Below, piece by piece: positions 1-61,216 of a stretch of DNA of 64,000 bases. A model generated the notes under the pieces. The model saw nothing but the letters and a program-made list of their open reading frames with translations. It had not been told where the DNA came from and searched no databases. Source of the DNA: Trebouxia sp. TZW2008 (taxonomy: Eukaryota > Chlorophyta > Trebouxiophyceae > Trebouxiales > Trebouxiaceae); the NCBI GenBank assembly GCA_002118135.1, contig BDIU01000416.1:124001-188000 (forward strand), written 5' to 3'. Position 1 is the stretch's first letter. Each line of letters starts with the position of its first letter. The translations under genes were made by a program, and so were the position numbers.

Positions 1-2
1 CC

Positions 3-3000
3 AAAACAGCCAAATGGGCAGCGGAGACAGCTCATGACAATGCAGAGAGCATTGGTGAGTACGCTGGAGAGGCTCTGCACGCTACAGAGGAGGCTGCGTC
101 AGAAGCTGCTCATAGCACTGCACGCGGCACAGCACATGCTGCGCAATGGACTGCCCACAAGCTGCATGACAGTGCTGAGAGCACTGGCGAGAAAGCAGGC
201 AAGGCTGTGGCGGCTACCGAGGAAGCTGCTGTTGATGCTTCCATAGCAGCTGCTGATACTGCTGAGTGGGCAGCCAAGAAGAGTGTGTCTGGGGGTGCAC
301 ATGCAACTGAATGGGCCGCCACAAAGGTGAGTCATGCACAATGCTTGTGTCTTCCAATCATTGGCATGCAGTATATGCTGCACAGCTTGCAGAGTGCCTT
401 TTGCAATATGTTGATCCAGCTTGAGTCCTGTGCCAGCTTGCTCTCGCCACCATGCAACTGCATTGTGCATACTCCAGAAAGCCTTTTTGTTTGCATGTGT
501 TATGTTTGATGCAGCTCATGGACAACAAACTGTTGAGATGCACGTGCAGATGTGCAAAAGCATCTGCATTCCTGCTTCAACCATTCGTTCTGTACAGAAG
601 AGTGTGCTTTGCAATTGTCATGCTTGTCTTGGGAGCTGTTATAGGATGCTCAAAAGGGTCAAATTCTGCTGCATCTCTGTTGATTACCTGTCATCCTATG
701 CTGTTGCCAATGGCAAGGAGCTACGTCACTTCTCCAATCAGTCTTTCGTCACGTGCATGAAACCCTTCAACCTATACTAGCTCAAGCTCTGTTGTGATGC
801 ATTGCAGGTGCATGACAATGCCGGAGGCATTGGGCATGCTTTGGGTAGCCTTGCTGGCAAAGCAGTGGCAGCTGCTCAGGGCACAACAGCTGCCGTAAGC
901 CACAAGGTATGTCCTTTCACAAAGCAATGCCTTGCTGTTGCATGCACTTCACTGTGAAGTGTGACAGGCGCATGTCCTTGCTGGGGGATCAAGCACGCCT
1001 TAGGCAACCTTGCCGGCAAATCTGTGGCAGCTGCTCAGGGCACAACAGCTGCAGTCACCCGTAAGGTACATGCTGTTGGCATGAGTGCTGTGCTGTTGCA
1101 TGCACTGCATTGAGGTGCCACAATGTCTGTGCATTGCGCACTGCCTGTTGTGATGATGTTTCATGTGGACAGCTGGCACTTCACCTGGTCCAAACCTCGC
1201 TCAGAAAGTCATACAGCAGAGCTTGCACAGTCAGCACAGTAAGGCATGCTCTTTGGTGTGTCTAATGACACAAGCGCATCTGTGCCTTTTTAGCAACATC
1301 ACATCTCACTGTAGCCTTCTGTTGATAGGCTTTCATCCGTCTTTGTTGGCAGTATCAGTGGCTGCATTCAATATGATGCTCTGGGCTGTTCATCAAAGGC
1401 TGCTTCATTGGTTTACCTGATTACAGCCTGGCTCGAGGTCATCGCCTGCATGTGTAGGCTCGTGACTTCCTCTCAGATGCAGAGGAATTTGCTGAGGATG
1501 CTCAGGAGGCAGTCAAGGATGAAGCTGGCAGACTCAGACGCACTGACCCTGCTGCCAGGCTCAGAGGCAGAGACCCAATTCCAAGCAACACTGAGGATGT
1601 CACATCTTGGCGCAAGACCCACCCCCACCACAGCAGGGACCCCAGGGGTTCAGACGCAGACACCTACAGACAGACAGCAGAAGGCTCCTGGCAGTCTGCT
1701 AAGAAGCAAGCAAGCGATGTTGCTGATGACATGAAGAGGAAGTATGATGACACTGCTGAGCAAGTGAAGGGCAAGAGCCAACAGGCAGCTGATGATGTGA
1801 AGGGCACTGCAGATGCAGCTGCTGATGAAGCCAAAGGATGGGGTAGCTGGTTTGGTAAGTGCAGCCCTCATGCTGTTATGTGCTGTGCTTTGCTGCTATA
1901 ACAATTAGACATGCTGGGATCGGATCAGGGACCTTGATTTGGTTTTGCCAGCTTGTTGTTGTATCATCAAAGCTGGAGGGGCATGTCATCAGGGCCTAAA
2001 TGTTGACTTGCTTGGGATAGTGATGTTGTAACGCCTAGGCTGCAGCTGCTCATCAATGCTCAGTCTTGCATTGTGTTTGGCACGTGGCTAGAGGTTGCTG
2101 TGATGCCATTTGTAACCGGCAGGTTGCTGAGTAAATTTACAACAGGTAAGCACGTCACAGCACTGGACAAGAACAGCTTTATGGACAGCAAGCTTCTTGT
2201 CCAGTACTGTGAGGCGCTTGCTGCTGTGATGCCTCATTGCAGACCAGGTGTTATCATTTGCTGCAGAGTCCTGTTGGAGTGCAGTCAGTCTTGCTTGCTT
2301 ATTGTTACCAAATTATGCTCTTTAGGCATGTAGACCTTCCAGGCTGCCTGTCTGGCCTTCTGCTTGTTGCATGTGTGCTTTCAATTAGCGAGGCAATCTC
2401 ACTGCTCACAAAGTCACTGAACACTGCTGCCTTGGCCAAGCTAGAGCACAGCTTGGTGGCCACTGTGCTTTTTACAGGCTATGTATTTCCTGCTGCAGGT
2501 TTTGGCAGCAAAAGTGAAGATCATGAGGCTGACAGTGAGCAAGTTGGCAGGGACAAGGCAAAACAAACTCAGGACAAGGCTGCAGACCTGAAAGACAGAG
2601 CTTCAGCAGCGGGCACAGACACACTGCGCCAAGGCGCTGATGCTACCAAACGTGCAGCACAGAGCTCTCGCGACACAGCAGGCAAGGCTGGCGACGCTCT
2701 TGGCAGAGGCGCAGGGAAGGTCGCTGGTACCGCCAACGCTGCTGCAGACAAAGCGTCCGACGCTGCTGATGCCGCCGAAGACTATGCTGAGCAAGCCAGC
2801 AGAGCCACCGCTCGTGGCACAGCAAACGCCGCAAAGCGTACAGCGGAGACCCTCAATGACAGCGCCGAATCAGTTGGCGGAGCAGCAGGACGTACGGCTG
2901 CCGCTGCTGAGGGCGCGGCAAAGGCAGCAGCCGTGGGCACCGCTCGTGGCCTCGCCAGCGCGACAAAGTGGGCCGCTGAAAAGCTGCACGACAGTGCACA

Positions 3001-6000
3001 TGACATTGGTGACGCAGTAGGCAAAGCCACAGCCAGCACAGAGCATGGCATCAAGGAAGGCAGCAAGAGCACAGCCAGAGGTGTTGCCAACGCAGCTTCC
3101 TGGAGTGCTGGCAAGCTGAAAGAGAATGCTGAAGCAGCTGGTGACAGCGTAGGCAACACAGCTGCTGCAACTGAAGACGCTGCTCAGCGCACAAGCACCA
3201 AGGTCGCTCGTGGTACTGCTGATGCTGCAAAGTGGTCAGCAGACAAACTACGTGACAGCAGCCATGATGTTGGGGAGTCAGTAGGCCAAGCAGCAGCTTC
3301 CACAGAGAAGGAAGCAAGGTCAGCTGCTCAGAAGGCTGCAGACAAAGCTGAGGGCTTAAGGCAGCGCAGCTTTGACAATGATGAGTCATCAGATGTTGTG
3401 CGTAGCGGTCAGGCTCAGTCAGAATCTGCAGCCGGCAGAACAGCTAGGGAGGCCAGGGAGGTGATTCAGGATAAAGCTAGATCAGTCAGAGACAAGATTC
3501 GAGGAAGTGCTAATGATGTGCAAGAACAGGCTTCCTCCCAAAGAGGTGCGCTATGCATGACGTTTGCAAGTGATGCAAGCTTGCATCAGTCGCAATGTTG
3601 GTTTCTTTGTCTAACTTGCATTCACAAGGCATACACATGTTTGCTGAAAAGCCTTGAGCTTTCTTATATGTGCCCTTCCTGCTAATTTCCTAACTGCATT
3701 ATACAGCAAGCTGAATCTTTGTTTAGGTTGTCTTGTTTTTGCTGTTTGGTCAAATGTCATGGCAAGCTGGTGGCCTTCCCACATCTGCGTGGCCTCCACT
3801 CCCCGCAACGAGTCTGGTGAAAGTCCGACCATCCTGCATGCTATTATGCTCCACTTCAAGTGATCACCGCTGCCATACCTGCAGGCCCCGCTCGCCGAGG
3901 TGAGGCTGCAGACAAATCTGATGAGCACTACCAGCGAGCCAAACAACACGCTTCAGCCTCAGCTAGCAGGGCTGGCGATGCTGTTGATGAAGCCACCTCC
4001 AGCACTGCATGCAGGTAATACTTCTGCAATAAGCTAGGCTTTGCATACTGAAATTACACAGCAAACTTCATTACACCCTGTTAGCACATTTCTATGCTTC
4101 AGCATCAGCTGGCAGAGCAGGAGACGCTCTTGATGAAGCCAACACCAGTGCTGCACGATGGTGATGCTACAGACTTGTGTAACCTAGGTGTAATTCTATT
4201 GAGCCTTGGAAAAGCGCATGCTGACAGTCAGCACAAACTCCTTCTCTGAGAACTAGGCGCAGCTTTGGGAGCGCATGGCATTGTTCATAAATTGGCTAAG
4301 CTGTCATGCAAATGACAACCTAGTCTGTCAAAACAGCTTGATGTTTTGCAACTCAACAACACAGCTCATCTACTTATGCATAGTGATGGATCCATACACT
4401 TGTACAATCAGCGTATTTCATGTCAGAAGTATGCACAGTTGACTGTGCCTCTGCACTCAGCTGTACTTACACACATGCTTCCAAACCTACCAAGCGTCCT
4501 GGACACCATTTCATGCTCTGCCAAATTTGCCCATGTTGATGTGCAGGTCTGCAGGCACAGCCCACTCCACTGCAAAGCAGGCTCATGACAGCGCTGCTGA
4601 CTATGGCCAGTCAGCCGGCAGAGCTGCGGCAGATGCTACAGACGCTGCTGAGCGAGCAGGAAGGACCACAGTCCGCAAGGGAGCCCAAGGGACCAAATGG
4701 GCTGCTGAAGAAGCACGCGATGCAGCTGACAGCGTCGGTGAGTCAGCAGGCAGAGCGGTAGCCACCGCTGAGGACAAAGCCAAGCAGGCTAAGACCAGAG
4801 TTGCCAGAGGCACAGCAGGTGCTGCTAAGTGGACTGCTGAACAGGCTCATGAGGGGGCAGAGGCTGTTGGTGATGCTGCCAGTCAAGCAGCACAGACCAC
4901 AGAAGAGTATGCACAGGCAGCCAAGACCAACCTTGCAAGGGGCACAGCCAAAACGGCCAAGTGGGCAGCAGAGTCAGCCCATGACAGCGCAGAGGCAGTT
5001 GGTGAGTATGCTGGTGAAGCTGCAGCAGCAACTGAAGAGTATGCTGAGGCAGCCAAGACTGGCTTGGCTAGGGGAACAGCCAAAACGGCCAAATGGGCAG
5101 CTGAAAAGGCACATGACAGTGCAGAGACCGTAGGTGAATATGTTGGAGAAGCAGCTGTGTCCACAGAGGAGTACGCAGAAGCAGTCAAGGTCAATCTGGC
5201 CAGAGGTACAGCCAAAACGGCGAAGTGGGCAGCTGTGAAAGCCCACGACAGTGCAGAGACTGTTGGCGAGCTTGCTGGTGAAGCAGCAGTAGCAACAGAG
5301 GACTTAGCTGAATCAGCCAAGGTCAACCTAGCTCGTGGCACAGCTAAGACAGCCAAATGGGCTGCAGAGAAAGCTCATGACAGTGCAGAAACTGTTGGTG
5401 ACTTAGCAGGCCGCACAGTTGTAGCTACTGAAGACACTGCAAAGCAAGCAGCCAGAGGTGTTGCTAATGCTACACAGTGGACAGCACACAAGCTTCATGA
5501 CAATGCAGAGGCAATTGGAGAGACCGCTGGCAAGGCAGTGCATGAGGCTGAGGAGTTGGCACATGAAGCTGGCACAGCTGCTGCTCGCTCGACTGCCCAT
5601 GCAGCTGACTGGGCAGCTGAGAAGGTGCATGACGGGTAAGCGTGTTTTCTGATCTCCCAAAAGTGAGTTTACATCAAAGCAAAAGACTGCAGTTGTACGC
5701 AGCCAACAACGATTGTTGAAAGCATTATTTAACTTTGATGAGGTGGTGTGATGCTGAGTTGCTGCTGCAGCATTCAGCAAATGAGTGTCAGAAAGGCTGC
5801 ATATGTACATGCATATACATGTACAGCACCTTTGCATACCAAATGACTTGTAAGGTGCTCTGCTAGGTGACAACCTGTCATGTGTCTAGGCGTTTCAGGA
5901 CCATTCTTGTAAGCAGTAAAGACTTTCTATCTTCTTCCCTTTGACAGTGTAAGCACTGATAGACTGCCAAATGTACCATGTCAGCATTGCTTGGAAACAA

Positions 6001-8851: not shown

Positions 8852-8895
<44 letters not shown>

Positions 8896-11800: not shown

Positions 11801-14800
11801 GTGAGGCCAGAGCCAATGACAGTTTCTGCCTTGCGCAAGGTCAGCCTACTTGGCAGAGGCATCTTGTCAGCTCATTCATGCAATGCCTTTGGGTGTTGCA
11901 GACGCATGGAAGAGCTTCACAGACCAAGTGAGTGAAGTCTTTGAGCCAGCCAAGACCTCCCAAGAGACCCCCAAGCCATCCCAGGAGACCTCCTCAAGTA
12001 GGCCGTGCCCCCCCCCCCCAACACCCCCCCCCCCCCCCNNGAGACCTCCCCAAGTAGGCCGTGCCCCCCCCCCCCAACACCCCACCCCTCCTCCTTACGT
12101 TGCAGCATTGTAGTGCATGCACAGATTCTCATCTGTGCTGCCATTGCACCTGTGATTGTGCTGATTTGATAGAGCTCCTTATTGCTTGGTGATGACTCAT
12201 TGGCTGGGCAGGGGCATATGATGTGACAGAGTATGCGTCTGGTGTTGACATGCATGAAGCCTCATACTACGTCAAACCTTTTGATGTAGGTGCAGGCCGC
12301 ACAGCTCATGAGGCAGCTGACAGCATCAAGCAGGAAGGCCGCAAGGCAGCTGACACCGTCAGGCATCAAAGTGACAAAGCATCTGGCAGGGCCAAGCAGG
12401 GAGGCAGCGAGGCCAGCAGTGCCCTGAAGAGGGCAGGAGAGGCCCTAGAGGATGGGTTTGTGGCTGCTGTGCAAGCTCCTCGCCACCTGGCAGACACTGT
12501 CCGTCATGAGGTCAGGCTTGGTTCAAGGCTGGCTTCAATCACTGGCAAAACACAAAGTGCAGTTCTGGCAATTGTCTTGTCAAGAGCTGTGCAGCTTCTT
12601 TGTGTGATAAGAAAACATATATTTGTGGCTGCTGTGCAAGCTCCCCGCCGCCTAGCAGACGCTGTCCGACACCAGGTCTGTCATTGCTTGACAGTAGTAA
12701 TGAATGTGCAGCTGCCAGCACAACACCGCTGGGTGTCTCCTGCTCGAATCTTGGCCAGCTTGTTTAGGGCATAAAGATTGCAGTCAGACACTACGTCAAC
12801 ACAGCAGAAGACAGCATCAAGCCAACACTGACCTGGTGCTGAAGAGAATCTGATTTGCTTGGAAAGACAGCATCCAGTCACCACTGATATTCGCTGCAGC
12901 ATCAAACGTCCCAAGATCACAAACGCTTGATGGCGCACTGAAGAGCAGTGTTGGCTTGTTGCTGTCTTTCAAACCAAGCCAGACTCTCTTAGCAACTGCC
13001 TGACATTAGGTCACCTTTGGCTTGATGCTGTCTTCTGCTGTCTTGATGTAGCCATCAAGTCGTATGCAAATGTGATCTGTGTCCCTTTTTTCTGCTCCCT
13101 GCATCAAAGTCAGCCTTGTATAGATTGTCAAACAGTCTAAGAGCGCTATCAGCTTTGGTGATGTGGCATTGACAGCATAGCATACTGTGTGCCTGTCCAC
13201 TTGGGCTATCAAGCTGCCTGCGCATGAGTATGCAGCCTGACAGACCAGATGTGCAGGCAGACTGCACATGCGTCAAGGCTGTTCTGCTTCGCCATCAGAC
13301 AATCTCTGGCGCTGCAAGGACTGTAGGGCAAACAGTTCTCAGCCACGTCTTGGCTGCATTGCCCTACTCTCTGCACCCAAGTCAGCCTTGTAGAGATTAT
13401 CAAACATTTCAAGAGCGCCTTCAGCTTTGGTGATGCGGCAGCGCAGCATGCTATACTATCTACCTGCAGATCTGGGATATCAAGTGGCCTGCATATCAGT
13501 ACATAAGCCGTCTGATAGACCAGATTTGCAGGCAGGTTATAGATGCTCCCATGCTGTTTTGCTTCACCATCAGCGAGTCCACTGCTGCGGAGACCATGGT
13601 GCAAACATTTTTCAGTGAAGTCTTGGCTGCATTGCCCTGCTCCCTGCACCCAGGTCAGCCGTGTACAGAGTGGAAAACAGTCCAACAGCAGGTTCAGTGA
13701 TGTGGCAACTTAGCATGCCACACTGTTGGCCTGCACATCTTGTTTCTTGGGCGGCCTGTGCATGAGTATATCAGCTGCCTGATAGACAAGATATGCAGGC
13801 AGATTGCACATGCTCCCGGGCTACTTTGCTTTGCCATCAGACAAGGTGTTGCCCTAAGAACTGCAGGGCAAACATCTCAGTCAAGTCCTCACTGCAATGT
13901 CCTGCTCTCTGCACCCAATTCAGCCTTGTACAGAAGTTGAACAGTCCAACAACACTATCAGGTTTGGTGATGTAGCAGCGCAGCATGCCATAATGTCTGC
14001 CTGCAAATCTGGGCTATCAAGCTGCCTGCATATGAGTACGCAGCCTGACAGACCAGATATGCAGCCAGACTGTACATGCTCTCATGGTGTTTTGCTTCAT
14101 CAGCCAGTCCGCTGCCGCCAAGATCTTGCGGCAAACACTTTTCAGTCAAGTCTTGGCTGCAGTGTCCTGCTCTCTGCACCCAAGTCGACCTTGTAGAGAT
14201 TATCAAACATTTCAAGAGCGCCTTCAACTTTGGTGATGCGGCAGCGCAGCATGCTATACAAACTACCTGCAGATCTGGGATATCAAGTGGCCTGCATATC
14301 AGTACGTAAGCCGCCTGATAGACCAGATATGCAGGCAGGTTATAGATGCTCACATGCTGATTCCCTTCACCATCAAACAATCTGGTGTTGCAAGCATTAC
14401 AGGGCAAACATGTCAGTAAAATCTTGGCTGCAATTTCCTGCTTGCAGCATCATGCACCATCTCAGCACTGGAGGTGTTCTGCCTGCGGGCCTGGTCTCAT
14501 GAACAGAAACAAAGCTCCTCATGGGTTTCAGGGATGGGCTTGCCCATTCGCAGAAGGCAGCGCGTGAATCAAAGATCACTTGCAAGACACTGCTGCTCAG
14601 GCGGCAGCCAGCATGCTTGATGACACAGCAGCACCTTTCAAACAATAGTCAAGTCAATGTAGGACACCAATTGGGTATAGTATACTCAGGGTAGTATACT
14701 CACTACAGGCAAACCTGTGAGCTGCAGATTGAGACATCTGAGGTCAAGAGCATACAGGCAAGATTCAACGTCAAGAAAAGGTCTCCACAGCAGAGGAGCT

Positions 14801-44100: not shown

Positions 44101-47100
44101 ACAAGGCAGCTGCCTTGCAGCATCCGCATGTCGCAAGTCGCTTTCCCTCTCTGAACGGCCACAATGTCTCCAGGCAAAAACAACCTCACAAGAAGCAGAA
44201 GAAGAGCACAGTCAAAATGCAGATGAAGAGCAGCGTACCTCTCCAGACAGCATAGACTCTTGCACACGGCAGCTGCCATGCAGCATCACCATATCACATC
44301 TTGCTTTACCTCTCCAAACCACAACAACGTCTCCAGGCACCAGTTTACGGGCAGAAGCAGCCTTACAAGATGTACAAGAAGAAGAGAAATAGGGCCAAGA
44401 TACAGAAGAAGAGGAGCGTACCTCTCCAGACAGCATAGACTCTTCCACAAGGCAGCTGCCTTGCAGCATCACCATATCACATGTCGCTTTCCCTCTGCGA
44501 ACCACAATGACGTCTCCAGGCACCAGTTGATGAGCAGAGGCTGCTCTCACCCACCCCCTTTGCACGATGGGTACCATGTGTTTCTGATTCACCAAACTAA
44601 CCAGCCTGCTGTGCTGGTCACTCAGTGCAGCAGTCAAGACACCAACTGCCGTCATGGAAACGAGGTTGAGGACTATTGCATAGGCATAGTAGCCGCGGTA
44701 CAGAAGGTAGGCAAGCTCGGTCAACTGCAGGCATTGCATCGCAGCTGTCAGTGACATGCGACGTGACAAGGACTTCAGATTTTTGCAATGTCACACATGG
44801 GTGGTAAGTGCAATCAAGCCAGCAACTGCCATCATGGAAATGAACTGCGGCACTCTTGTGTAAGCACAGTAGCTGCGTTTCAGGAGGCACACGGTCTCTG
44901 TGACCTCACAAGCGTCAGTTGTATGCAATGTGACAGTAAAGTAGTACTGACGCAGATGTCAGTTGCATGAAGGACAGCACAGGTGTCAAGCACAATCAAG
45001 CCAACAAATCGCGCCAAATAATGTTGAGCACAATGGCAGTTGCATCTTGCGCCTATATGGCAAAAATCGTGGGCACGGCATGTCTTATGGCTGCTGTCTT
45101 GACCCGGAAAGCCACTACTTAATGTTATACACAAACTTGCTTGTATTTTGGATGTGTCACTGATGCCCAACCATGAATCAGTGCAATGAATCTGGTGTTG
45201 AAACGCACCTGGATGGCAAAGATAGTGGGCAGGGCGTGTCTGATGGCTGCCGCCATGACCTGATCCCGCTGAAACAGCCACTTCTTGATGCCATACACAG
45301 GCTTTCTTATATATTGGACATGTCGCAGATGCCAAATCATGTGCAACAAGACTTGAATTAGAACAAACCTGGATGGTAAAGATAGTGGGCAGGGCGTGTC
45401 TGATGGCTGCCGCCATGACCTGATCCCGCTAAAACAGCCACTTCTTGATGCCATACACAGGCTTTCTTATATGTTGGACATGTCGCAGATGCCAAATCAT
45501 GTGCAACAAGATTTGAATTAGGACAAACCTGGATGGTACAGATAGTAGGCAGGGCATGTCTGATGGCTGCCGCCATGACCTGATCCCGCTGGCACAGCCA
45601 CTTCTTGATGCTATACATAGGCTTGCTTGCGTTTTGCACATGTCACTGATACCCAATTGTGTACAAGGAGACCCAAACTAGTCAGACCTGGATGGCAAAA
45701 ATAGTGGGCAGGGCGTGTCTGATGGCTGCTGCCATGACCTGATCCCGCCGGAACAGCCACTTCTTGTTGCCATACAGTTGCACCATGTTCAGCCTGTTGT
45801 GCGCATGCTTGCTGTTGAACTGCTTCCAATCAGCACCTGCAGAATTGTATTAGTGTGTCAGGCTGTGGACCCATTGTTGGACAATTGCAGCATCTTTGGC
45901 TGGTTGTGGGCATGCTTGCTGGGGAACAAGTTGCAATCAGCACCCGGACAGCCACCAAAAGCTGATACACGAGGCTGTGCAGTTGTTGCCATACAGCTGC
46001 ACCATGTTCAGCCAGTTGTGGGCATGCTTGCAGTTGAACTGCTACCAGTCAGTGCCTGCACCGCACTGAAATTTCTGCTATACAGCTGCACCATGTGCAG
46101 CTATCTGTGGGCATGCCTGACATTGGTTGACTTGCGTTCATCGCTGCTGCACAGTATTGTTCCCATATCGATCATGTATCAGGTCACACAGCTGTTGCCG
46201 TACAGCTGCACCAAGTTTGGTCGATCATGGACATGCTGACTGTTGCTTTGCTCACGTTCAGCATTTCTCCCGCACACAATGCATTGCTGTAAAGCCGCAT
46301 TATGTCCGACTGCAGGATGCTTGTGGATGGCGTCTACCAAGCCAGTCCATGCAATGCATTAAGCTAGCCTCCCTTGGCATCATGCGGTATCCATATGATC
46401 CAAAAGTTGGCTCAAGGGTCCTGACATGGACTTTGTCTGCCTCTTTGATTGCTTTTCCATAGCACATAGATTGCTGCAACCTCCGGATGATATCAATCAA
46501 GCTCTTGTTGCGCAAAAGGCTGATGCTTTGATGCCCCACTCATTGATGACATTGCTCGCATGCCTCTTGCTGCGAGCTTTGAGCCCAAAAGAAATTTACT
46601 CACCTTGGCTGATTGCCAATAGAGAGTCCAGCGCTCTGCAGATGAGGTCTGGGATCTGTGCTGGTACTGCTGGGATGGCCTCAAACTTGTCGTGCTCAGG
46701 GCAGTAGGCGTACTGCCTGAGGAAGAGCTTGAAGATGCGCAGCTTGGGCCGTGTTGCTGCTCCAGCGTCAGGAGTCTGCAACAGCTGTGAAAAGTTTACT
46801 TGAATCCATGATGCAAAACAGTATGTCAGCCAAACTGGCAAACAACCAGCAGAGGGTTGAATTTTCCAAACAACTTTCCTAGCTACAACAAGTTATCACA
46901 AGCATAGAGATCCGCAACAGTCCGTGATGGTCTTGGCGTAGCAAGCCGTGATACCTTTTGCAAAGCAGGCATGTCAGCTTGCTATTCATTCGTCAAATTC
47001 TCAGCCCCCCATCCTTGTGCATGGTTCGCCATTGGGGTAAGGCCTTGCCGCACTTCCTCCACCCCAACCCCTCCCCCATCCACCATGGATACTTTTGGAC

Positions 47101-49492
47101 GCAAGAATTGCGTCAATTTCACGCATGACTAGCAGGTGCGTTTGACACAAACTGCAACACCCTCTGTGGTGCCATGATATCAAACATGATCAAAACATGG
47201 GTTTTTTGGCCTTGTGCACAGGGGTCAAACTGGCCCAGTATCAGACACGAGCTGCAAGATTCAATTAATGGGGCCTGAGATGCTTGGGGACAAATGTGCT
47301 GTCAGCTTACACATGTGCCGTGCAGCTCACTGCTTCTGGATGCACATAGCTGGATCAAGAGATCTCATGGGCAAGCAAGTTCAGAAACAAGTGAACACTG
47401 ACAGCGAGACTGGCTTTACATGCATAGTATGTAGCGCAATGTCTTGAAAGTATGTGATCTGAGACATGGTGTGATTGACCTGACAAAGCATGCATGGGAA
47501 GAAACGTGGCTTACGTGTGTGCCATGCAGTCCACTATAGCTGGCTGACATGGTGTACCTCTGCACCTTCACAATGCATGTCCTCCCATCAATCAGCTGCA
47601 GACACACACACATACAAGTTGAACATGCACACTCCCACAGCATACAAAATGTGCAGCAACTCAACCGTTGGCGCGCTTCGATACTGATGCTGGACATTGC
47701 CATCTTTAACAGGCTTGCAACATGCATGCGGGTTCAGGACTGTACCAGCAGGTGCCATACACTGACCATGACACGCAAATAGACACTGAAGGCATGTGCT
47801 TAGGGCGCATGTGCACATAAAGCATGAGCACAGCGAGCATGAGCACAGCAAGCATGAGCACAGAGAGCATGAGCACAGCAAGCATGAGCACGGCGAGCAT
47901 GAGAATAGCGAGCATGAGCATGACGAGCATGCGTGCGGCAAGCATGAGCACAGCGAGCATGAGCACAGAGAGCATGAGCACAGCATGCATGAGCACAGAG
48001 AGCATGAGCACAAGAGCATGAGCACGGCGAGCATGAGAATAGCGAGCGTGAGCACAACCAGCATGCGCGCGGCAAGCATGAGCAAAGCGAGCATGAGGAC
48101 AGAGAGCATGAGCACAGTGAGCATGAGCACGGCGAGCATGAGCACAGAGAACACGAACACACAGAGCATGTGCTTGACTCTGAGAGCAATGTCCACAGGC
48201 TAGCAGTATCAGAGAGAAGTCTGATCAAGCTTGATGGGGCTCAGGTGTAGGCCAAAAGACGGGTAGGGGAAGGGATGGGGGAGTTGAGCAGAGTCACCTT
48301 GACCAGCACAAAGCTTGCTTGCGCGAGAGGGCATTGGCTGAGGAAACGCACAGCTAAGTTTGGCATGGCACGTACGGCCAGCCAGAACAGGCCACATGTC
48401 AGCAGGCTGCAAGTGGCCAGCACCACGTACAAGTAGCGCCTGTGGCCATGCCGCTTGTACCCAATGCACTCTTGCACAACCTGTTGCAACAAGAGAATCC
48501 ATCTGGCCAACAAAAGGGCTGTCGTATAAGAAGTGGACAGGCGAATGAGTTCCATGCCGCTTGTACTCAATGCACGCTTGCACAGAATGTGGCAGCATGG
48601 GCGCATGTCTGGCCAAGGGAAGCAAAGTGTTTATATTCACAATGTCAACAGGCTGATGATTGCGCTTATTGATGCAGTCGTTTGACAACTGGCTGGCATG
48701 CACTGCGACAGAAGGCATTGTGATTTCCCTATACAATCTGTTGCAAGATGTATGCACATGCATCTCTTGTCAGAGTTTGGGATGCAGCCTGAAAGCATTG
48801 CCAGCCTTGAATTGGCACCACTTGAATACACAAACATTGCGCTTGGCCAAGCTCACGGCACACTACCTTACCTTCTCAGTATGCTGCACCTCCCTGCGCT
48901 GAATGTCATGAGAGCGGGTTCTACGGCTGTCCTGCTTTGCTGGGACTGGCTGTGCGCTGCTGTCAGCTGCTGCATTCTGCTGCACAGTATTGACCATCAA
49001 AGGTGTTGAAGGTGACACGTGTGCCTCTGATTTGCACGTCCTTGTGAGGGCACTGCCTCAGGTGTGATTATGCTGCCGACAGGGCATAGCGGGCATTGCT
49101 TTGGCAGCATGTGTCGGAAAGTTTGGCTGGTGGTCAGAGCATCAAACTGAGCCAGGCAGTACAGAGGGCGCTCGAGTGTCGCTGACGCGATTCGCCGTAG
49201 CAACAGGCATTGCGCTGACTGCTCTGCCCGACAGTACCATGCGAGCGCATTCAGACCGCCTCATCGAGCTTCCTTCGTTTAGCTCTGTTTTGCGCTTTGA
49301 GTAGGTTGGTGTTTGACCAGATGCTGCTGCAAAAGCGATAAGCACCTCACAGACGATGTAGCCCTCGGCGTTGGCCTTGCTCACAGAGACGTTCTGCTCA
49401 CTGTCGACAGACCTCTCGTCTCTGAAGCGCAAGTTTATAAAGCTTGTAAACTTGTTTTGCTCAGGCGTGTTGACCGGGGGCAGGTAGACCGC
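32109..49492 (-). CDS. P5B-type P-type ATPase (ATP13A2-like)
   Basis: Exons 5' to 3': up to 49492-49346 (start unresolved), 48979-48890, 48480-48298, 47595-47566 (tentative), 46775-46604, 45836-45688, 44724-44422, 42527-42423, 42106-41969, 41718-41422, 40245-40054, 39541-39311, 38941-38736, 37624-36679, 36446-36305, 35213-35152, 34820-34737, 33663-33568, 33024-32896, 32441-32109. From 48979 on they give 1,295 residues in frame. Seen in order: an N-terminal membrane loop (GYKRHGHRRYLYVVL), first membrane pair, actuator loop ending MLSGE, PPAIP, the phosphorylation motif DKTGTLT, N-domain, MITGD, GDGIND and C-terminal membrane segments. PPAxP and the overall order fit P5B pumps, which move polyamines or cations out of late endosomes or vacuoles. 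Odd points: a roughly 200-residue Ser-rich insert before VVFARM, RGAPG where KGSPE is usual, two probable GC-AG introns, and extensive exon duplication. The class is secure; substrate and exact 5' end are not. Confidence 0.85.
32739..33024 (-). repeat. ATPase membrane exon 33024-32896 and its downstream copy
   Basis: The exon encodes TDIFTMWYLTTRPWCLGG; a copy at about 32,840-32,739 encodes TDIFTMWYLTTQPWYSGG and also ends at a GTAAGC donor. The copy's 5' half differs (no clean acceptor), so it is a donor-side duplicate with a period of about 155 bp. Confidence 0.7.
33568..34120 (-). repeat. Four copies of the ATPase exon that encodes DYALDFQAL
   Basis: The used copy is 33663-33568. Three more start near 33,826, 33,976 and 34,119 and encode DYTLDFQALSV, DYMLDFQALFM and DYTLDFQALSM. 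Steps are about 145-165 bp. The extra copies keep the acceptor side, with the farthest having CAAG instead of CAGG, and lose similarity after about 45 bp. Confidence 0.7.
35323..35405 (-). repeat. Dispersed repeat family A, copy 3 (reverse strand)
   Basis: The reverse complement reads CTAGACAAGCTCAGCAGGC and ends TTTTGGTCCTGTGCTATC, matching the copy at 16,741-16,822. It lies in an ATPase intron. Confidence 0.5.
35780..36446 (-). repeat. Four-copy array of the ATPase GDGxND exon
   Basis: The intact exon 36446-36305 encodes MFCGDGINDLAALRAADIG. Copies with donor-side ends near 36,137, 35,969 and 35,783 repeat NDLAALRAADIGLAVGLTDA-like sequence at steps of about 168-186 bp. In all three the FCGDG part is replaced by sequence resembling the end of the previous unit, so the catalytic Mg-binding motif and the acceptor are missing. 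Confidence 0.75.
37895..38285 (-). repeat. Two copies of the start of ATPase exon 37624-36679
   Basis: Segments at about 37,985-37,905 and 38,275-38,195 repeat the MITGDYQHTAIAVAKDV coding edge. The nearer one reads MMMTGDYHRTAIAVAKDV then a stop; the farther one is frameshifted. Intron sequence between them is also partly repeated (TAGCAGCA..TAAATAGCTTGACTA). Confidence 0.7.
38980..39063 (-). repeat. Copy of the start of ATPase exon 38941-38736
   Basis: After a GTGCAG acceptor it encodes VIDDYSSQSFRLMAG, like VIDDYSSQSFRLMAVAV at 38,941, 121 bp upstream of the exon. The similarity fades after about 80 bp. Confidence 0.7.
39560..39735 (-). repeat. Copy of part of ATPase exon 39541-39311
   Basis: Encodes MPRKPDAQSDSKMA, identical to the exon at 39,541, then a one-base-type slip breaks the frame before the VIEFSSQT equivalent. 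It lies about 180 bp upstream of the real exon. Confidence 0.65.
39740..40146. repeat. Inverted repeat: exon edge copied in opposite orientation
   Basis: The arm 39,740-39,838 (plus) and the arm 40,146-40,047 (minus, inside exon 40245-40054) share TCGCACTATGGTGG, GATATGGAGCAGCGCCTGTT-like and GGCAAGGCATGCT blocks over about 100 bp at roughly 85% identity. The spacer is about 210 bp. In the pre-mRNA of the ATPase the two arms could pair into a hairpin across the exon 3' end and its GC donor. Confidence 0.75.
40054..41190 (-). repeat. Ladder of copies of ATPase N-domain exon 40245-40054
   Basis: The exon starts AEWHGAVPVKDGSFEPLQ. Upstream copies begin near 40,408, 40,598 and 40,793 (long, about 130 bp each), then near 40,950, 41,050 and 41,175 (short and worn). 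Blocks between 40,430-40,500 and 40,620-40,690 are near-identical introns. Only the first copy contains the downstream half with VVGEEMEQRLFKS. Confidence 0.8.
42423..42825 (-). repeat. ATPase exon 42527-42423 with two upstream partial copies
   Basis: The exon encodes AAQVRKSAYVVDEGLAYHPD and ends FAGTVVRQ. Copies at about 42,652-42,592 (AAHACKSAYVVDEGLAYH) and 42,822-42,755 (AAQMRKSAYKVDEES) keep the acceptor side only, at steps of about 125 and 170 bp. Confidence 0.7.
43010..44560 (-). repeat. Nine-copy array of the ATPase actuator exon
   Basis: The unit that encodes HQLVPGDVIVVRRGKATCDM and then MLQGSCLVEESMLSGE recurs nine times with about 180-bp steps; the MLQGS codons fall near 43,035, 43,210, 43,390, 43,575, 43,755, 43,945, 44,122, 44,282 and 44,468. 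The first in reading order (44,560-44,422) is fused to the membrane exon 44724-44422. The others form 123-nt, phase 0-0 exons, most with an AAG acceptor and a GTACG-like donor. The copy near 43,390 lacks an AG acceptor and the last one, near 43,035, is worn. Confidence 0.85.
44780..45090 (-). repeat. Two worn copies of ATPase membrane exon 44724-44422
   Basis: At about 44,890-44,795 the reverse strand encodes VTETVCLLKRSYCAYTRV, parallel to LTELAYLLYRGYYAYAIV of the exon. Weaker similarity to the same exon and its CTGCCGTCAT-like core recurs near 44,990-45,040. Neither copy is complete. Confidence 0.6.
45050..45836 (-). repeat. Five-copy array of the ATPase exon that encodes KKWLFRRDQVMAAAIRHALP
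   Basis: The used exon is 45836-45688. Its 3' half with donor recurs with donor positions near 45,529, 45,368 and 45,208, about 160 bp apart, almost unchanged (KKWLFQRDQVMAAAIRHALP), and once in worn form near 45,060-45,120. The copies lack the 5' half of the exon. Confidence 0.8.
45870..46300 (-). repeat. Copies of the 5' half of ATPase exon 45836-45688
   Basis: The block that encodes NSKHAHNRLNMVQLYGN (CATACAGTTGCACCATGTTC on the plus strand) recurs, in decreasing quality, at about 45,890, 45,990, 46,077 and 46,197, with a possible trace near 46,290. So the two halves of this exon have been copied in opposite directions along the gene. Confidence 0.65.
46985..47560. other. ATPase intron, no clear features
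   Basis: Part of the long intron region between exons 47595 and 46775. A C/A-rich block at 47,005-47,095 is the only compositional oddity. No convincing exon copies are seen. Confidence 0.4.
47820..48185. repeat. 15-bp minisatellite, about 24 units
   Basis: The unit AGCATGAGCACAGCG recurs with small changes over about 365 bp in the intron between ATPase exons 48480 and 47595. Because 15 is a multiple of 3, all six frames stay open and create spurious His/Glu/Ser-rich or Met/Leu-rich frames on both strands. Confidence 0.9.
48540..48605 (-). repeat. Partial copy of ATPase exon 48480-48298
   Basis: Encodes VQACIEYKRHG, matching VQECIGYKRHG at the start of the exon, about 115 bp upstream. No donor side. 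Confidence 0.6.
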
Positions 49493-50493
49493 TTACTCAT
49501 AATTACGTGCTCGACACGAGTTAGGCGAGAGAGAGAATAATTTTACCAGCCAACAAGGCTGATCACATGTGCCACACTGTGGCAATGACTATATGTCCAT
49601 GAAACGAAAATTCGATTGTTGGCATCACCTGGTGATCAGCAGCATCTAGACTCTTGAGGCCAGTGGTGTCCACGCGCGAGCGGTGCCAGGCATGCAACGA
49701 TCAATGACCTGCTCTCTGTTTCCCCCGGCGCACCGTCAGTGAATGTACGCATGGCATGTCAGGCATGACATTGCACAAGCCTTGATCTTAGATCAAATGA
49801 TCTCTGAGTCGGTCGCCTCCTCGAGTTCTTGCTTTTCATGGATGTCGTTCTGTTGCATGCATGCACAAGTGACAAGGTTTATCATCCCGCCATGCACATG
49901 CATTCAAAGCAGCACAATGTGACGATTTCAAGCGCATGTTCTGTCACCATGATGATTCTACAACAAGTTGTTACAATCTGCTAGACATATCAGTGCTGTA
50001 AGTTAACACAGCATTGATCATGCAAGCATGCTGACAAGGCACAATCAGTGTTGAAGCTCTGCAACTACAAGTTCAACTTCATGATTCACCACATCAATCC
50101 ATCCATTGAAACCACTGACTACTTGGAACATTGCAAACGCTATCGGGAAGCAAAGCCTTAGGGAGAAGTGCTGAAACTGCCTGACATAAAAGGGCTTCTG
50201 AGCCCATCAACAAATGCCAGTGCTGCAGTGCTTTATTCATGATAATGCAGGATGTACTTCAAAGGTTTGGCTATGACCACACGAGCTGCAAAAGCATGCC
50301 ATGCCAAGTGGCAAACAATGCAGTCATGCAGTGACAGCTGCTGCAAACTACCACCATCAAAGGTTGTGCTGAGCCACCGACTTTCAGAAGTCGCTATACT
50401 TGCTCTGAGACAGTACAGGACTGAAACAATGTCATGCTCAGAAATGGTTGGCACCCAATGCATGCCCTCTGTATCTCACATTCAACAAATCAG
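49493..50493. other. Intergenic region upstream of the ATPase
   Basis: Likely ATPase promoter/first exon region together with the 3' flank of the minus-strand hydrolase-propeller gene. A TTACA (minus-strand TGTAA) at 49,971-49,975 is a possible poly(A) signal about 610 bases beyond that stop. No other gene is visible. Confidence 0.4.
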
Positions 50494-50640
50494 CACAGAA
50501 AACTTCTACCGTTCAAGCTTCGTGTGCCCATTGTATATGATGCTCTTGATTTTGTTTTCCATTTGGTCAATTAGCACAGAAACCTTCTACCATTCAAGCT
50601 TCTTGTACTCATTGTATGTAATGCTCTTGATCCTGTCTCC
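50494..50640 (-). repeat. Duplicated 3' edge of the terminal exon of the propeller gene
   Basis: TAGCACAGAAACCTTCTACC and the next 45 bp, which encode the end of the protein plus 3' flank, occur at about 50,572-50,640 and again about 83 bp downstream at 50,489-50,557. The copy lies after the stop codon. Confidence 0.75.
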
Positions 50641-55204: not shown

Positions 55205-56069
55205 AATGGCTAGATGCTGCTGCGTTTAAGGTCACGTGTGTCGCAGCCTCCTCGTGCTGCCTCGTGGCGTCAACTGACTTTACACGAGGGGTGAGTAAGT
55301 GACGGGTCAAGCAGCAGTTGCTCAAGCTGAACACTTGCTTTTTGCTGTGCACAATCTCTCGGCGCATTTTGTGTGGACCATCCATAATAGCAGGGATCTG
55401 AAAGTGAATTTAGGCCCTGATGCACAACTCCGTGCAAGCAGAGAAAGCTTTCAAGTTGACACTGTGTCGCTGTGTAGAATGCAAAGAGTTCAAACGAAGG
55501 CCACACCAGCTCACACTGATGAGACCCAAGCAAAGGTTCCATGCAGCTGCACTTGCTGACGCCGCGCGGCAAACATCAATGCAAATTCACGTTGGAGCCA
55601 GTACGATACCAAAGTCACAATTGCAGACGCATCTTTATTTATCAATCCATCAACCAGCCAAGCAATGAACCAAAATGGTTGGCTCACGCGTGCATACGGC
55701 TGCCTTGACAATTTTGCCTGTTCACACGCTTGCTGATCAGAGTGATTACACAGTCGTCTGAGGCACTGTCAGCTTTGACAGCTTGGACGAGACGCTGACA
55801 ATGGCTGTTAGAAATAGCGCGTGACTAAGATTCTTTCTGCACGTGAGTCTGGTGGGTCAGGCCGCGAGTACGAGCAATCAGAAGCCCTGCCAGAAGCTGT
55901 ATGCGCTCAGGGCTTTTACGCAAAAACAGTTGCACAACCTTCTGCCAGATTTCAGGTCCATTGCAGACGCTTGAGACTTCCCTGACGTATCAGCCATCCC
56001 TGAACAGCCTTGACGGCGTTGATCTAAAGCTACTGCTTTGTGTTTTGGCTTATTACCGCTCGTGGGGGC
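55205..56069. promoter_or_regulatory. Shared divergent upstream region
   Basis: The minus-strand hydrolase-propeller gene and the plus-strand bZIP gene start 865 bp apart, head to head, so the interval must hold both promoters and 5' UTRs. I see no clear TATA box or repeated operator. Open frames inside have no family signal. Confidence 0.45.
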
Positions 56070-59000
56070 ATGAACATGCCCAGCCAGAATGCGACTGGTC
56101 TCGACATGTTTGTCGGATCCGGCTTGGATTACCTGCCCGAGGTCAGCCTTGAGGATTTGGACACGGACCTGTTGAGCTCAAACATATCCCCAAACCTCGG
56201 TCAAGACTTGTCCAACGGCTTCACTCCACTGGCAGCTTCACTTGGGACATTTGGGCCTGGTAGCAGATACATGTTGGACCCCTACCTGCCTTCAGTAGCT
56301 CAGCTATCCCAGCTTCCTTTCATGCCTGCAGCAGGCAATCCTCCTATGCCAAGCTGGAACTTAGGTGCGCCAAAATCACCAATGTTCTCGTTGTGGCGTG
56401 ACTTTAACTACAGTAGCATCGCAGTTTGCGTGTTGCTGCAGGAACAAGCGCTAGTCAACCTGCACAGCCATTTGGACTCATGGATCCTGCAGCAAATGCG
56501 CAGCTGGAGCCATTTAGTCATGCAGATCATTCCGGCACTGCTTCAGGATCAGGGGAGCTCAACCCAGGAGCTCCAGAGACTATGGATGCCAAAGCCAAGA
56601 TACGAGACAAAAACAAAAGAGCGCAAAAACGGTTTCGTGAGCGAAAAAAGGTGGGGTGCTGACAATTTTCCCTGTCTCCTGAGCTCTATCCTGCACACCA
56701 TTGCCCCGGGAACTTGACTGACGGACAATGCCGCCTCAGCCCAATGACAGGAGCTAGGCATAGAGATTGCGCCCTTACAGCTCATAAGGCTTTGCCAACT
56801 GTCAGCTGCAGTTTTGCACAAGCAAGCTATTGCTTTACAGGCCTTGAGCAAAGCACCATGCAATACTTTGCTACTTGCATGCTGACAGATGCTCTCTCCT
56901 GCACATTGTTGGCCCATGTGGCATGTCAACCTAAACTTGAGCTGCTGACACTTTTTAGAAGTTGTGGCATCTGTACCACACCAGATGCAAGTCTGTCTGT
57001 GTGACAGGAAATACTGAGTGCTTGCTCAAAGGCATGCAGCTAAAGGTAATGCCATAGTGCATGACGCAATCATATACAGGAGCAAGCTCAGGAGACAGAG
57101 CAACAGCTGACAGACCTGACTGCTGAGATATATAGATTCCAGGCCAGGACAGATATTCCTGTTGTCAATTTTGTAGTGCTCAGGGCAATGGTGTGCAGGA
57201 TAGAGCTCAGGAGACAACAACACAGACATAGACCTGACTGCTGAGATGGAAAGAATCCAGGCTGAGACATTTCTTCTTGTTCTGGTTGTTATAGAGCATG
57301 GGGCAATGGTGTGCAGGAAAGAGCACGGGAGACAGGGAAACAGATGACAGACCTGACTGCTGAGATGGAAGAAATCCAGGCTGAGACATTTCTTCTTGTT
57401 CTGGTTGTTATAGAGCATGGAGCAATGGTGTGCAGGAAAGAGCACAGGAGACAGGGAAACAGATGACAGACCTGACTGCTGAGATGGACAGGACCCAAGC
57501 TGAGACAGTCATTCTTGTTTCGATTGTTGTATGGCATTGGGCAATGATATGCAGGAGAGAGCACAGGAGACAGGGAAACAGATGACAGACCTGACTGCTG
57601 AGATGGACAGGACCCAAGCTGAGACAGTCATTCTTGTTTCGATTGTTATATGGCATTGGGCAATGATATGCAGGAGAGAGCTCAAGAGACAGAGAAACAG
57701 ATGACAGACCTGACTGCTGAGATGGAAACAATCCAGGCTGAGACAAAGAAGCTAGAGGAGAGGAATCAGCTGCTGGAGAAAGTTTTGAGCCTGAACAAAA
57801 TAGAGGCGCCAGCTCCTTCAAGAGGTCCTTTAGAACTTGTAAGACGCTTCTTTATGCTTTCTCTGCTCTTGCTTCCTTTCCACCCCTTCATGCAGCTGTT
57901 CAATGCAACGATGACTCCACTCCTGTACAAGGCAGACTTTTCAGTCAGCGCGACCAGTAATGTGTCATGTTTGTTGCCGCCTGAGCATGCAACACACACT
58001 GACCCATGCTTCTTGGCCAGCACTCAAGCTCCTCGTATGATCATTTAAAATTGGCAATTTTGTCTCACATCCTTGTAATGTATTGCAATGTATTTGAGTT
58101 GCATCCTTCTACAAGTTGTCCTATGTCGGTTCATCATTGCAGACTCCTGACACCTTGAAGACCCGCTGCAACCCCTATGGAGCGGAGTTTGAGGTCTTCC
58201 CACCTGACAAAGTGCTGCCTGTTTCAGTCCTCACAACACAACGAAAGGCCATGACAGTTCAAGAGATCAAGGACATGTCGTGGGAGCAGCATGTGCTTCT
58301 GTGGAAGGTATGACATGTCCATGCATGTTGAGGCTGCTTTTATAGATGGCGGTTCCTTCTCTCAAGATCACTCTCAATGCTGTGTACTTCCTTGTCACCA
58401 CCTGTTGCAATGGCACAAATTTGGATATGCCAAATGCACCTGTTTGCGGCTCACTACGTCAAGAATTGCATGCTCTTTCTGCTGTTAGTGCCCAGCAGCA
58501 TTTTGCTGTGGCTGCCAATAGCGCCATACATTGCTGCATACAAAGCTTGTTTGCAATAGGGCAGCATACGTCACGTCTGTTTGCGCACAGCTTTCTACTC
58601 CCGCCTGCTGCATAAAGCATGCATGACATCTGTGCAGCAAAGTCTGCATGTGCGCACTGCGCCTGTTCAACCAAAGATGCATAAGCTTACCACCAACAGT
58701 AGCGCTGCAGAACGCCAAGTGTCTCATGACAACAAGCTCAGTAAACAGCCTACTAGCACCAAACTTCAAGACTCACAGCAGCTTAATGATGGTTATACTG
58801 TGCAGGCATATTGTGCCAAACTAGCAACCTTGCTGTCAAAAGCCAATGGTGACCCAGAGTCAGAGGCTGGCTTGGAATCACAGGTGATTTTGCAGATCAT
58901 GTGTAGTAGTGTGAGGTACCACCTCGCCGTCTAGCTAGCAATGCCTTTTATCCCATGCACGCTCTGTAACATCATCTGTGCACCATGAGTGGATGCTGTC

Positions 59001-61216
59001 ATTAGACATGTTCAGCAAGGCAGCGACTGAGCTGTACAAGCTGGAGCAGAGGGCGCATTCTTGTCAGTGATTGTTGCTGCACACATAACGCAGCATCATC
59101 ATATGTTCATCCAGGCAAATTGAGTCAGGGCAACAGTCTCCCTGTGAGCTGCGGGCTGTTACAAATTGCGCAGAACATTGCCTGGCCCAAAGAGCATGAC
59201 GCCTGGCACGGCTGTGACAAGCAACATCTTGTAGCGATGGATGAACGCCTACAGGGTGTGATCTTCTTGCAGTTATATGTTGCTTGCATGGAGGAAGCCC
59301 AAAAGTTGCTGTGATGTGACTTGCTTGTGTTGTCTGCAGAGTACAGTCCAAGAAGCGGTTGCCATGTGCTCAGTCAAAGCAATGTATGATCCTTACGGTT
59401 TGCAACACTTTTACATCGCACGTATGGAAGAGGCACGCCGTATCAGCAAGCAGAAGACACCCTCATCTGAGGCCATGGCAGCATTGATGGCTAAAGTACT
59501 GGTGCGCCCTTGCCCCCCCTTTCCCTCAGGAACTCCCCCCCTCCCCCCCCCGCCGCCCCCGCCGCATTATCCCCATCAGTTCTTATCTTCTCCCAAACAT
59601 TGCTTGCAGCATTGTGAAAGCATTGACTTTGTTTATGTGCATGGCTCTGCCAGGTGTCGGCGTCTACACATATTCTCATGTTTGAGCTGTCGTCCAGCAC
59701 TCGATCAATTTGCTAGAAGATGCATGCGTGACATTCTTCAGTCAGCCTTGTGGGTGCAGCTTTGTGTTTTGATCACTCACGCAGAGATGCTGTCGACATT
59801 GCCAGTTCAAGCCTTCAAGAGCTTGCTTTGTACTCAGATATTTGCATGCATCACATGATGCACTTACTGTCTTTCATCCTGTGTCGGCAAGACTTGCAAA
59901 ACGCAATGTCATGTTGCGTTCATTGGTTGACTGCAGGGGTCATTAGGTCTTTCAGATCAGCAGAAGCAGGGCCTACTTGACTTGCGACAGTGGGTGCTGC
60001 CACAGATTGGCCAGCTTATGAGAGAGCGCGAGCGCCTCAGCACAGCTTTGCAATCCATCACCAAAGATGGCCATAAGCAGGTATGCCTGGCAAACAAAGC
60101 ACAATGCCGCAGAACAATCATTTCAAGCCCGCATGAATAAGTTGTTGAGCACCTCTTTGGTTTTGGCAATATGCATGAGACTAGCCTTTTGTTTTTGGTC
60201 TTGTCTGACAGCTCATGTGTTAAGGTGACTCATTCAGGCAAAAGCATACTGTGCCAAGCTAGCAGTGAGTTGCGTAGGCTGCAAAGTCCCATGCTGTTTG
60301 ATCTGTTGCTTGTGCCGATCTGCATGGCATGCTATTGTTGTAGACCAGTCAACACAAACATGCAGCATTGATGCCTCGACAGTTCAGAAGCATACATTGC
60401 TGCAGCATTTGCACTTGCAGGCTCCTCCTGAGCAATGTGCATATGTGTGTTTTATTGGACCAATGGATTCTTTAGAGCTTAAATGTTGCTATAATGGCCA
60501 ACAATGGATTGCAGTAAAATTCTACCGCTTGCTCATTAGCTACCTCGTGGGAGTGTGCTACCAGATGACTGACTAAATAAATATGCACGCAGGAAGTGCT
60601 GTTTGACAGCAAGCGCCTGTCTGACGCTCATGTCCAAGCAGCTGACATCTTGACAGAGCTTTACAGTAACCTGAAAGAGGATTCAGTGCTGTCCATACAG
60701 ATGTCAAGCGCACTCTGGCGCAAGGTCTGCCCCCAATGCTGCCGTGTACCTATTGCATGATTGTTAGCATGCTGCTAGCGAAGGGCCATGCTGCTAATGT
60801 CATGTGCCTTATCACTGAAACATAGCACACCGTTGTTGATTCATCACGCCCCAATCCTGTTAACTTCTCATGGTTGCAAAATCTACATTTCCATCAAGTG
60901 TGACAATGCATGTGATGTGCATGCATGGCTATGGATGGCATGTCAACACAAAACCAATGACCAACTTTTGTACTGCTCACCCCTATGCAATCTGTGCTGC
61001 TGACCACACCTGCGATCTGTGTCCCTGGTGCTGCAGCTGATCACTCCTTTCCAGCTGGCAACCATAGCAGTTGAGACATATCCTTGGGTCCCTGACACTG
61101 GTGCATTGCTCAATCAACTTGCAGCTGAAGATGGGCAACCATCTGCAGTTGAGCTACTTGGCTTTGGGGAGTTTGGCGTTCATGCAAGCAACAGGACAGC
61201 AGTCAAAACCTCTTAG
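56070..61216 (+). CDS. bZIP transcription factor
   Basis: Nine exons in frame: 56070-56364, 56442-56650, 57674-57838, 58143-58307, 58806-58883, 59340-59501, 59937-60080, 60593-60724, 61037-61216 (1,530 nt, 509 residues). The start is the Met of MNMPSQNATG; an in-frame Met at 56,040 would add ten residues. The N-terminus is acidic and Ser/Pro-rich, as in activation domains. Residues about 145-170 form the basic region NKRAQKRFRERKK, with the bZIP N-x7-R spacing and a Phe as in AP-1/Yap-like factors. The next exon gives the leucine zipper (heptads through EMETIQAETKKLEERNQLLEK). The C-terminal 300 residues are helical, with RQWVLPQIGQLMRERERLST and a final YPWVPDTGALLNQL, a conserved-looking region whose fold I cannot name. 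It acts in the nucleus on DNA; targets unknown. The intron before the zipper exon carries five decoy copies of its acceptor edge. Confidence 0.85.
57080..57790 (+). repeat. Six-copy, 119-bp array of the bZIP zipper exon edge
   Basis: Acceptors (CAG then G) fall at 57,080, 57,199, 57,317, 57,436, 57,555 and 57,674, almost exactly 119 bp apart. Each unit encodes MTDLTAEMERIQAET-like sequence for about 70 nt and then intron. Only the sixth continues into KKLEERNQLLEK and a GTAAGA donor. Units 4-6 are nearly identical, so the array is young. Confidence 0.85.
59255..59315 (+). repeat. Copy of part of bZIP exon 59340-59501
   Basis: Encodes LQLYVACMEEAQKL, matching LQHFYIARMEEARRI in the exon, about 140 bp upstream; a TTGCAG precedes it. 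It ends in TGA with no donor. Confidence 0.55.
60235..60275 (+). repeat. Copy of the start of bZIP exon 58806-58883, moved downstream
   Basis: After a TTCAG, the segment reads GCAAAAGCATACTGTGCCAA and encodes AYCAKLA, the same as the exon start at 58,806, then a GTGAGT. Unlike the other copies it lies about 1.4 kb and two exons away from its source. Confidence 0.5.

Follow-up and report, generated by a model that had tools for sequence, protein, structure and literature searches.

Partial exon copies in the introns of a Trebouxia alga: a probable product of genome-wide, exon-blind tandem duplication filtered by selection

Why should introns of a green alga contain repeated partial copies of the exons next to them, running across the splice junction? 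The question is raised by a 64,000-nucleotide stretch of the Trebouxia sp. TZW2008 genome (contig 392, bases 124001-188000; hereafter the window), and we addressed it in the P5B-type ATPase gene of the window and in 20 other stretches (199 kb in all) of the same genome, which measures 68.5 Mb in 527 contigs. Our analysis indicates that the exon-edge copies are probably explained by tandem duplication, mostly of 65-233 bp, that acts throughout the genome without regard to exons and is subsequently filtered by selection.

The ATPase was recognised as P5B-type from matches to PF12409 and PF00122, together with PDB matches to ATP13A2 and P5B ATPase. It is the only gene of the window named by the Pfam scans, which covered the plus strand outside about 20.0-46.5 kb and the minus strand outside about 20.0-36.5 kb, and which short exons can escape; a weak match to HC2 fell short of the curated cut-off and was rejected. 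A self-trained exon-intron hidden Markov model recovered 0.28-0.50 of test coding bases and is relied on here for the open frame around 4788-5401 alone. Seven exons of the ATPase gene were placed, five by PDB alignment, the one starting at 42527 from its homologue in a paralogous gene and the one starting at 45836 by eye. In transcriptional order, the gene, its exons and the copies around them are as follows.

36305..48471, minus strand: P5B-type ATPase gene, from the N-terminal PF12409 match (48471-48298) to the last placed exon.
45837..46119, minus strand: intron 5' of exon 45688..45836, with copies of its 5' edge.
45688..45836, minus strand: exon ADWKQFNSKHAHNRLNMVQLYGNKKWLFRRDQVMAAAIRHALPTIFAIQ, flanked by a TGCAG acceptor and a GT donor, placed by eye and outside all Pfam and PDB matches.
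45049..45687, minus strand: intron 3' of exon 45688..45836, with tandem copies of its 3' edge and donor, period about 160.
44810..44887, minus strand: upstream copy of the 5' part of exon 44422..44724, 74% identical.
44422..44724, minus strand: functional A-domain exon, ending in CLVEESMLSGE, placed by PDB alignment, PF00122 and paralogue exons in loci L041-L043.
42938..44421, minus strand: intron 3' of exon 44422..44724, with eight copies of its 3' part and donor region, period about 183.
Near 42734-42808 and 42583-42661, minus strand: two upstream copies of the 5' edge of exon 42423..42527.
42423..42527, minus strand: exon AAQVRKSAYVVDEGLAYHPDSYHECTIFAGTVVRQ, positioned with the help of its homologue in paralogue L043.
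41422..41718, minus strand: exon with the CFDKTGTLTG motif, placed by PDB alignment; alone among the seven in having no local copy outside exons.
40246..40956, minus strand: intron 5' of exon 40052..40245, in which the 5' edge of that exon recurs several times, with periods of 160 and 192.
40052..40245, minus strand: exon HGAVPVKDG, with a clear acceptor and an uncertain 3' end, placed by a weak collinear PDB alignment (domain score -1.1 bits).
37625..38296, minus strand: intron 5' of exon 37498..37624, with two copies of its 5' edge near 37903-37980 and 38207-38296.
37498..37624, minus strand: exon GGIRTMMITGD, 3' end not fixed, placed by PDB alignments.
36305..36446, minus strand: exon GLGHMVMFCGDGINDLAALRAADIG, donor at 36304, placed by PDB alignment.
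35780..36240, minus strand: intron 3' of exon 36305..36446, with three copies of its 3' edge, one of which, by eye, has AT for the donor GT.

The placed exons use TGCAG or CACAG acceptors and, wherever the donor could be fixed, GT donors, as in a eukaryote. Non-exonic local copies flank six of the seven, covering 54.5% of exon bases at a minimum of 70% identity. Copies cross the splice junctions in a fixed manner: those of a 5' edge lie upstream of the source exon, and those of a 3' edge lie downstream. Their exon parts are 70-99% identical to the source, and seven of the eight downstream copies of exon 44422..44724 are 84-94% identical to it. The first-pass annotation of the window had reported such junction-spanning copies, upstream or downstream of the source, at 25 or more exons of five genes. 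We recover the junction-spanning placement and, at six of seven placed exons, the ATPase; the other four genes (LEA, low-complexity, hydrolase-propeller and bZIP) received no name in the Pfam scans over the ranges given above.

Exon 40052..40245 has no clear GT donor at its 3' end, where a GC donor (AAG|GCAAGG) is possible. One arm of an inverted local duplication (39732-39838 and 40042-40149, 88% identical) lies over this 3' end, and the duplication is an exception to the rule of direct orientation.

A self-comparison of the window revealed many direct local repeats and few inverted ones. With the same fixed thresholds applied to six 10-kb tiles of the window and to the 20 outside stretches, the tiles gave 86 direct pairs versus seven inverted, and the outside stretches 236 versus two. 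One dinucleotide shuffle per tile left no direct pair, shuffling the outside stretches left no pair of either kind, and 50 kb of E. coli (five 10-kb tiles) run through the same pipeline yielded none; chance as the source of the arrays is rejected by the shuffles. Grouping pairs by smallest period, in a search covering units of at least 40 bp, resulted in 42 independent arrays in the window and 115 outside it, the latter spread over 18 of the 20 stretches at 0.58 per kb and covering 14.7% of bases on average. Outside periods form one mode at 130-170 bp (median 145 bp, quartiles 119 and 184.5); 106 of the 115 fall within 65-233 bp, nine are longer, up to 946 bp, and 36 are divisible by three. 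Thus, the earlier proposals that tandem duplication places copies in introns, that periods run from about 80 to 270 bp and that the process is genome-wide all find support, the size range being close to ours and the arrays not confined to the window. A link between the 145-bp period and nucleosomes is only a thought. The remaining two stretches, L004 and L014, are 10 kb each and lack any array, while every other stretch has at least two; their open frames gave no reason for this.

Could the arrays be errors of assembly? There are gaps (N runs in L020 and at 12039-12040 of the window), and near-identical pairs are few. However, identity within outside pairs runs from about 65 to 97%, and 113 of the 115 arrays, found in 18 of 20 stretches, stay below 95%. 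Of the two that reach 95% or more, one (L010, d 100, 97%) has a match of 99 bp, no longer than its unit. Collapse of near-identical copies would hide arrays rather than make diverged ones, and since the exon parts of the ATPase copies are only 70-99% identical to their sources, they too speak against an artefact, which we regard as extremely implausible. The arrays are in this respect real.

It is also improbable that they are old minisatellites, expanded by slippage or unequal exchange alone with no distinct duplication process. Some arrays do contain four to eight units, and the 183-bp array of the ATPase gene is equally compatible with a 370-bp dimer. Nevertheless, sizes fill one narrow range, and in 81 of the 115 outside arrays the match does not extend over a full period, giving them the look of single decayed pairs; this is expected once decay has erased the intronic portion of an old pair.

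We then asked how arrays lie relative to exons, using 54 exons, placed mainly by protein homology, and 53 arrays from the ATPase gene and 17 outside loci, the latter being segments in other parts of the genome with matches to the E1-E2 ATPase and chaperonin families. Twenty-six loci had been brought in, of which eight overlapped others and were unused; L045 and part of L044 were dropped for overlap, and one match each in L021 and L034 was left out as a presumed copy. Outer exon edges of family-matched segments were set by the best splice motif. This count used ATPase exon coordinates off by up to about 20 bases, corrected for the analysis of copy state below. A circular-shift null, which loses about four of the 53 arrays to wrapping, served for comparison. 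An upstream copy of a 5' edge was present in 13 of the 53 arrays (null 3.2) and a downstream copy of a 3' edge in eight (null 3.0), giving 21 edge-spanning arrays versus 6.2. Not one array was on the wrong side of its exon (null 0.8) and none had both arms within one exon (null 8.1). Exon-interior copies occurred in four arrays (null 3.2), and 28 touched no placed exon (null 31.2). Whole-exon copies were absent from all 53 arrays versus 0.3 expected, a weak result, compared with 21 one-edge arrays; one near whole-exon pair in L021 stands outside this count.

The excess of 21 edge-spanning arrays over 6.2 could be taken to mean that exon edges or splice sites are the target of duplication, for example via transcription, R-loops or splicing intermediates. 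We simulated tandem duplications that ignore genes, added substitutions and indels under selection on exons, and ran the same repeat search on the products (three settings, 64 loci each). Edge and non-exon arrays numbered 46 and 44, 46 and 43, and 41 and 45 (ratios 0.91-1.07), with none wrong-sided and none within one exon. An exon-blind model therefore gives an edge share equal to or higher than the real one, where 21 edge to 28 non-exon arrays make a ratio of 0.75; a value below the simulated range is expected when not all exons are placed. Local copies were found at seven of 20 PF00122 (E1-E2)-matched segments, and at 26% of random intervals of equal lengths. Because exon-blind duplication with purifying selection yields the same pattern, aiming at splice sites is not needed and is rejected as unnecessary; with more than half of the arrays touching no placed exon, we consider it hardly likely. 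In this point we depart from the first-pass annotation, which had presented the duplication as one of exon edges.

The scheme that we favour would work as follows. Direct tandem duplications, mostly of 65-233 bp, would arise all over the genome regardless of gene structure. Within one exon, such an event would disrupt the protein and be lost unless its length suits the frame; within an intron, it would be neutral. Straddling a donor, it would leave the original exon and donor intact and put a partial exon with a spare donor into the next intron, and straddling an acceptor, it would put a spare acceptor with a partial exon into the previous one. Since the functional exon is conserved while stranded copies decay, exon-edge copies would remain recognisable for longer than purely intronic ones. 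As the molecular step, we infer fill-in repair of adjacent nicks or staggered breaks.

Mutations of this general kind are known from elsewhere. Patch-mediated small tandem duplication in plants has reportedly been described by Vaughn and Bennetzen in 2014 and by Schiml et al. in 2016. In rice, small tandem duplications are enriched at 50-200 bp and rank first among insertions of their class; they make up 70% of events at the start, a share that shrinks beyond 125 bp and reaches 5% by 200 bp, and repair of adjacent nicks is favoured over slippage (PMC7971508). Like them, the Trebouxia arrays consist of direct tandem units ranging from tens of bp up to about 200 bp, above which numbers drop steeply, but the rice events are young polymorphisms between varieties (PMC7971508), whereas the copies described here are old and dense, with the exon-edge effect drawn out. 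In mammalian cells, fill-in by CST and Pol alpha-primase at breaks with 3' overhangs, before end joining, likewise produces small direct tandem duplications, although this was shown at induced breaks, for example with 50-bp overhangs (PMC8355091). Orientation and size limit in Trebouxia fit the patch or fill-in kind of repair with a somewhat longer mode. Such repair would require neither pre-existing repeats nor junction microhomology, and would depend on adjacent nicks or staggered breaks together with end joining. The first-pass annotation had known of no named system, and rice repair of adjacent nicks supplies part of an answer (PMC7971508); an algal case was not found, as no title or abstract opening in the literature searched, with most subscription papers outside reach, described exon-edge copies in algal introns. 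Tandem duplication of exon segments that carry AGGT, a route to intron gain, also creates extra splice-site sequences, but there a new intron arises inside an exon, while here existing introns receive the copies (PMC3443670).

Edge copies also occur in relatives of the ATPase. A DNA relative of its A-domain exon is present on seven more contigs (C428, C275, C369, C40, C39, C169 and C191), indicating that the ATPase belongs to a multi-gene family in this genome. Three of these paralogues were fetched, and C169 was chosen since two matches were known there, so they do not represent the family fairly: copies of both a 3' and a 5' edge are present in C169, a single short 3'-edge copy in C428 and an upstream copy in C275. 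In a tree of copies of one exon, built without the C428 copy (48 bases aligned), nine window sequences stood apart from six paralogue sequences (support 0.985), and four from C169 grouped together (0.995), from which it follows that the arrays had separate origins or underwent separate homogenisation. Searching proteins with the ATPase exon pair (139 proteins, best 96% identical) yielded no DNA of a relative, and no relative was found on viral contigs scanned for other eukaryotic DNA.

Several observations weigh against our explanation. The placement simulation runs on assumed rates and reached only 0.41-0.43 arrays per kb versus 0.82 in real gene loci; at about half the density, it demonstrates the sufficiency of an exon-blind model but not its exactness. 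Density is uneven, with copies at one of 16 exons of two chaperonin genes that are nearly complete (one of seven in one gene, none of nine in the other) versus six of seven in the ATPase gene. The same holds for exon bases with a non-exonic local match of at least 80% identity, which amount to 48.4% in the ATPase gene, 9.5% over 63 exons outside it and 4.0% in the chaperonin pair. There is a shortage of young pairs: when duplications are simulated at 0.003 per base per neutral substitution per site, 0.53 arrays per kb result, near the 0.58 seen outside the window, but at constant rate 26 of 192 simulated pairs are at least 95% identical, versus two of 115. Any one of three causes would account for this scarcity: assembly collapse of near-identical copies, a higher rate of loss for identical ones, or a slowdown in recent times. 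Periods divisible by three make up 21 of the 42 window arrays, for which coding repeats account in part only. The rice share falls already from 125 bp, and the mode here is 130-170 bp (PMC7971508). Finally, copies differ from their functional exons at 9.2, 7.7 and 21.1% of codon positions 1, 2 and 3 (53 copies, 23 edges), so that the ratio of positions 1 and 2 to position 3 is 0.40 (bootstrap 0.31-0.54), while free decay predicts 0.5 or more; this third-position excess comes from the ATPase gene (0.34, 0.23-0.52), the other genes giving 0.50.

Such a bias might mean that the copies have a function, either as alternative or mutually exclusive exons or as spare splice sites that are maintained; the first-pass annotation had likewise suggested a supply of spare splice sites and cassette exons. 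Consistent with this, the ratio is 0.33 (0.23-0.48; 30 copies) among copies without damage, and copy-to-copy changes in five ATPase arrays number 24, 25 and 57 by codon position (p = 4e-5). Among alignable copies, the donor dinucleotide is kept in 21 of 24 (17.8 expected) and the acceptor dinucleotide in 24 of 26 (18.7 expected), together 45 of 50 versus about 36.5. On the other hand, ten further copies have no alignment over the site, and counting these as lost leaves 45 of 60 kept, close to neutral. Thirty of the 60 edge copies carry a stop or an indel in the exon part, the other half being undamaged, and in damaged copies, as in those outside the ATPase gene, the ratio is 0.50. Most copies are partial, and a message that included them would be expected to have a conserved domain duplicated in part or interrupted. 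Known cases of tandem exon duplication with mutually exclusive exons do share with ours the presence of exon copies within the same gene, but there the exons can be spliced (PMC9013439), whereas here the copies mostly hold one edge and have a broken reading frame in half of the cases, unlike mutually exclusive exons. A study using other software puts the share of exon bases with copies at about 2% for human, 0.08% for fly and 0.06% for worm (PMC9013439), a comparison with our 9.5% that is only a rough guide since the methods differ.

Successive snapshots of a living exon also yield a third-position bias. Copies amplified from one dead copy would change evenly across codon positions, and the simplest reading of the pattern is that the living exon was copied again and again; partial function of the copies, or feedback into the exon, is possible. 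Taken together, we find it unlikely that the copies are working exons or maintained splice sites, and we retain exon-blind duplication filtered by selection.

The observation holds for the ATPase gene and the genome sample: a mutation of a familiar type, visible at an uncommon density, from which splicing sieves a pattern that the literature searched did not show. As the first-pass annotation proposed, introns may have grown by such tandem duplication. A more far-reaching idea, which we hold to be doubtful, is that nucleosome-scale tandem duplication is a leading source of intron length in this lineage, and that, with every junction-straddling event copying the living exon anew, introns hold a time series of exon snapshots, some of which unequal exchange may return to the exon; such feedback would explain the third-position bias even among intronic ATPase copies. 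A mutation type that is usually hidden becomes readable here, its size limit, density and splicing filter being measurable in one genome. It offers a simple neutral account of possible intron lengthening and of exon-like debris in introns, and a warning for gene finders, as intact copies can pass as exons. If copies do feed back into exons, a further route of exon evolution would be added.

The window contains other arrays and repeats, found by the repeat search.

13092..14442, no strand assigned: array of about 4.8 copies, period 266-272, in a putative gene context.
19204..20538, no strand assigned: two arrays, 19204-19638 (d 170) and 20169-20538 (d 164), in a putative gene context.
57066..57745, no strand assigned: array of about 5.6 copies, period 119, in a putative gene context.
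4788..5401, plus strand: repeat of period 132 (44 codons) in the long open frame of an unreliable gene model.

The last of these is taken as a coding repeat rather than an exon-edge copy, and some window arrays in long open frames, for example 4788-5401 and 47784-48173, look like in-frame coding repeats. Short-unit repeats at 47784-48173 (15 bp) and 24293-24484 (33 bp) have units that are multiples of three and are apparently coding low-complexity sequence. At 12791-13051, about 260 bp match their own reverse complement at 71.5%, a large palindrome-like structure. A dispersed repeat (26143-26273 and 61285-61415) has two copies that are 83% identical and 35 kb apart, and is possibly a fragment of a mobile element.

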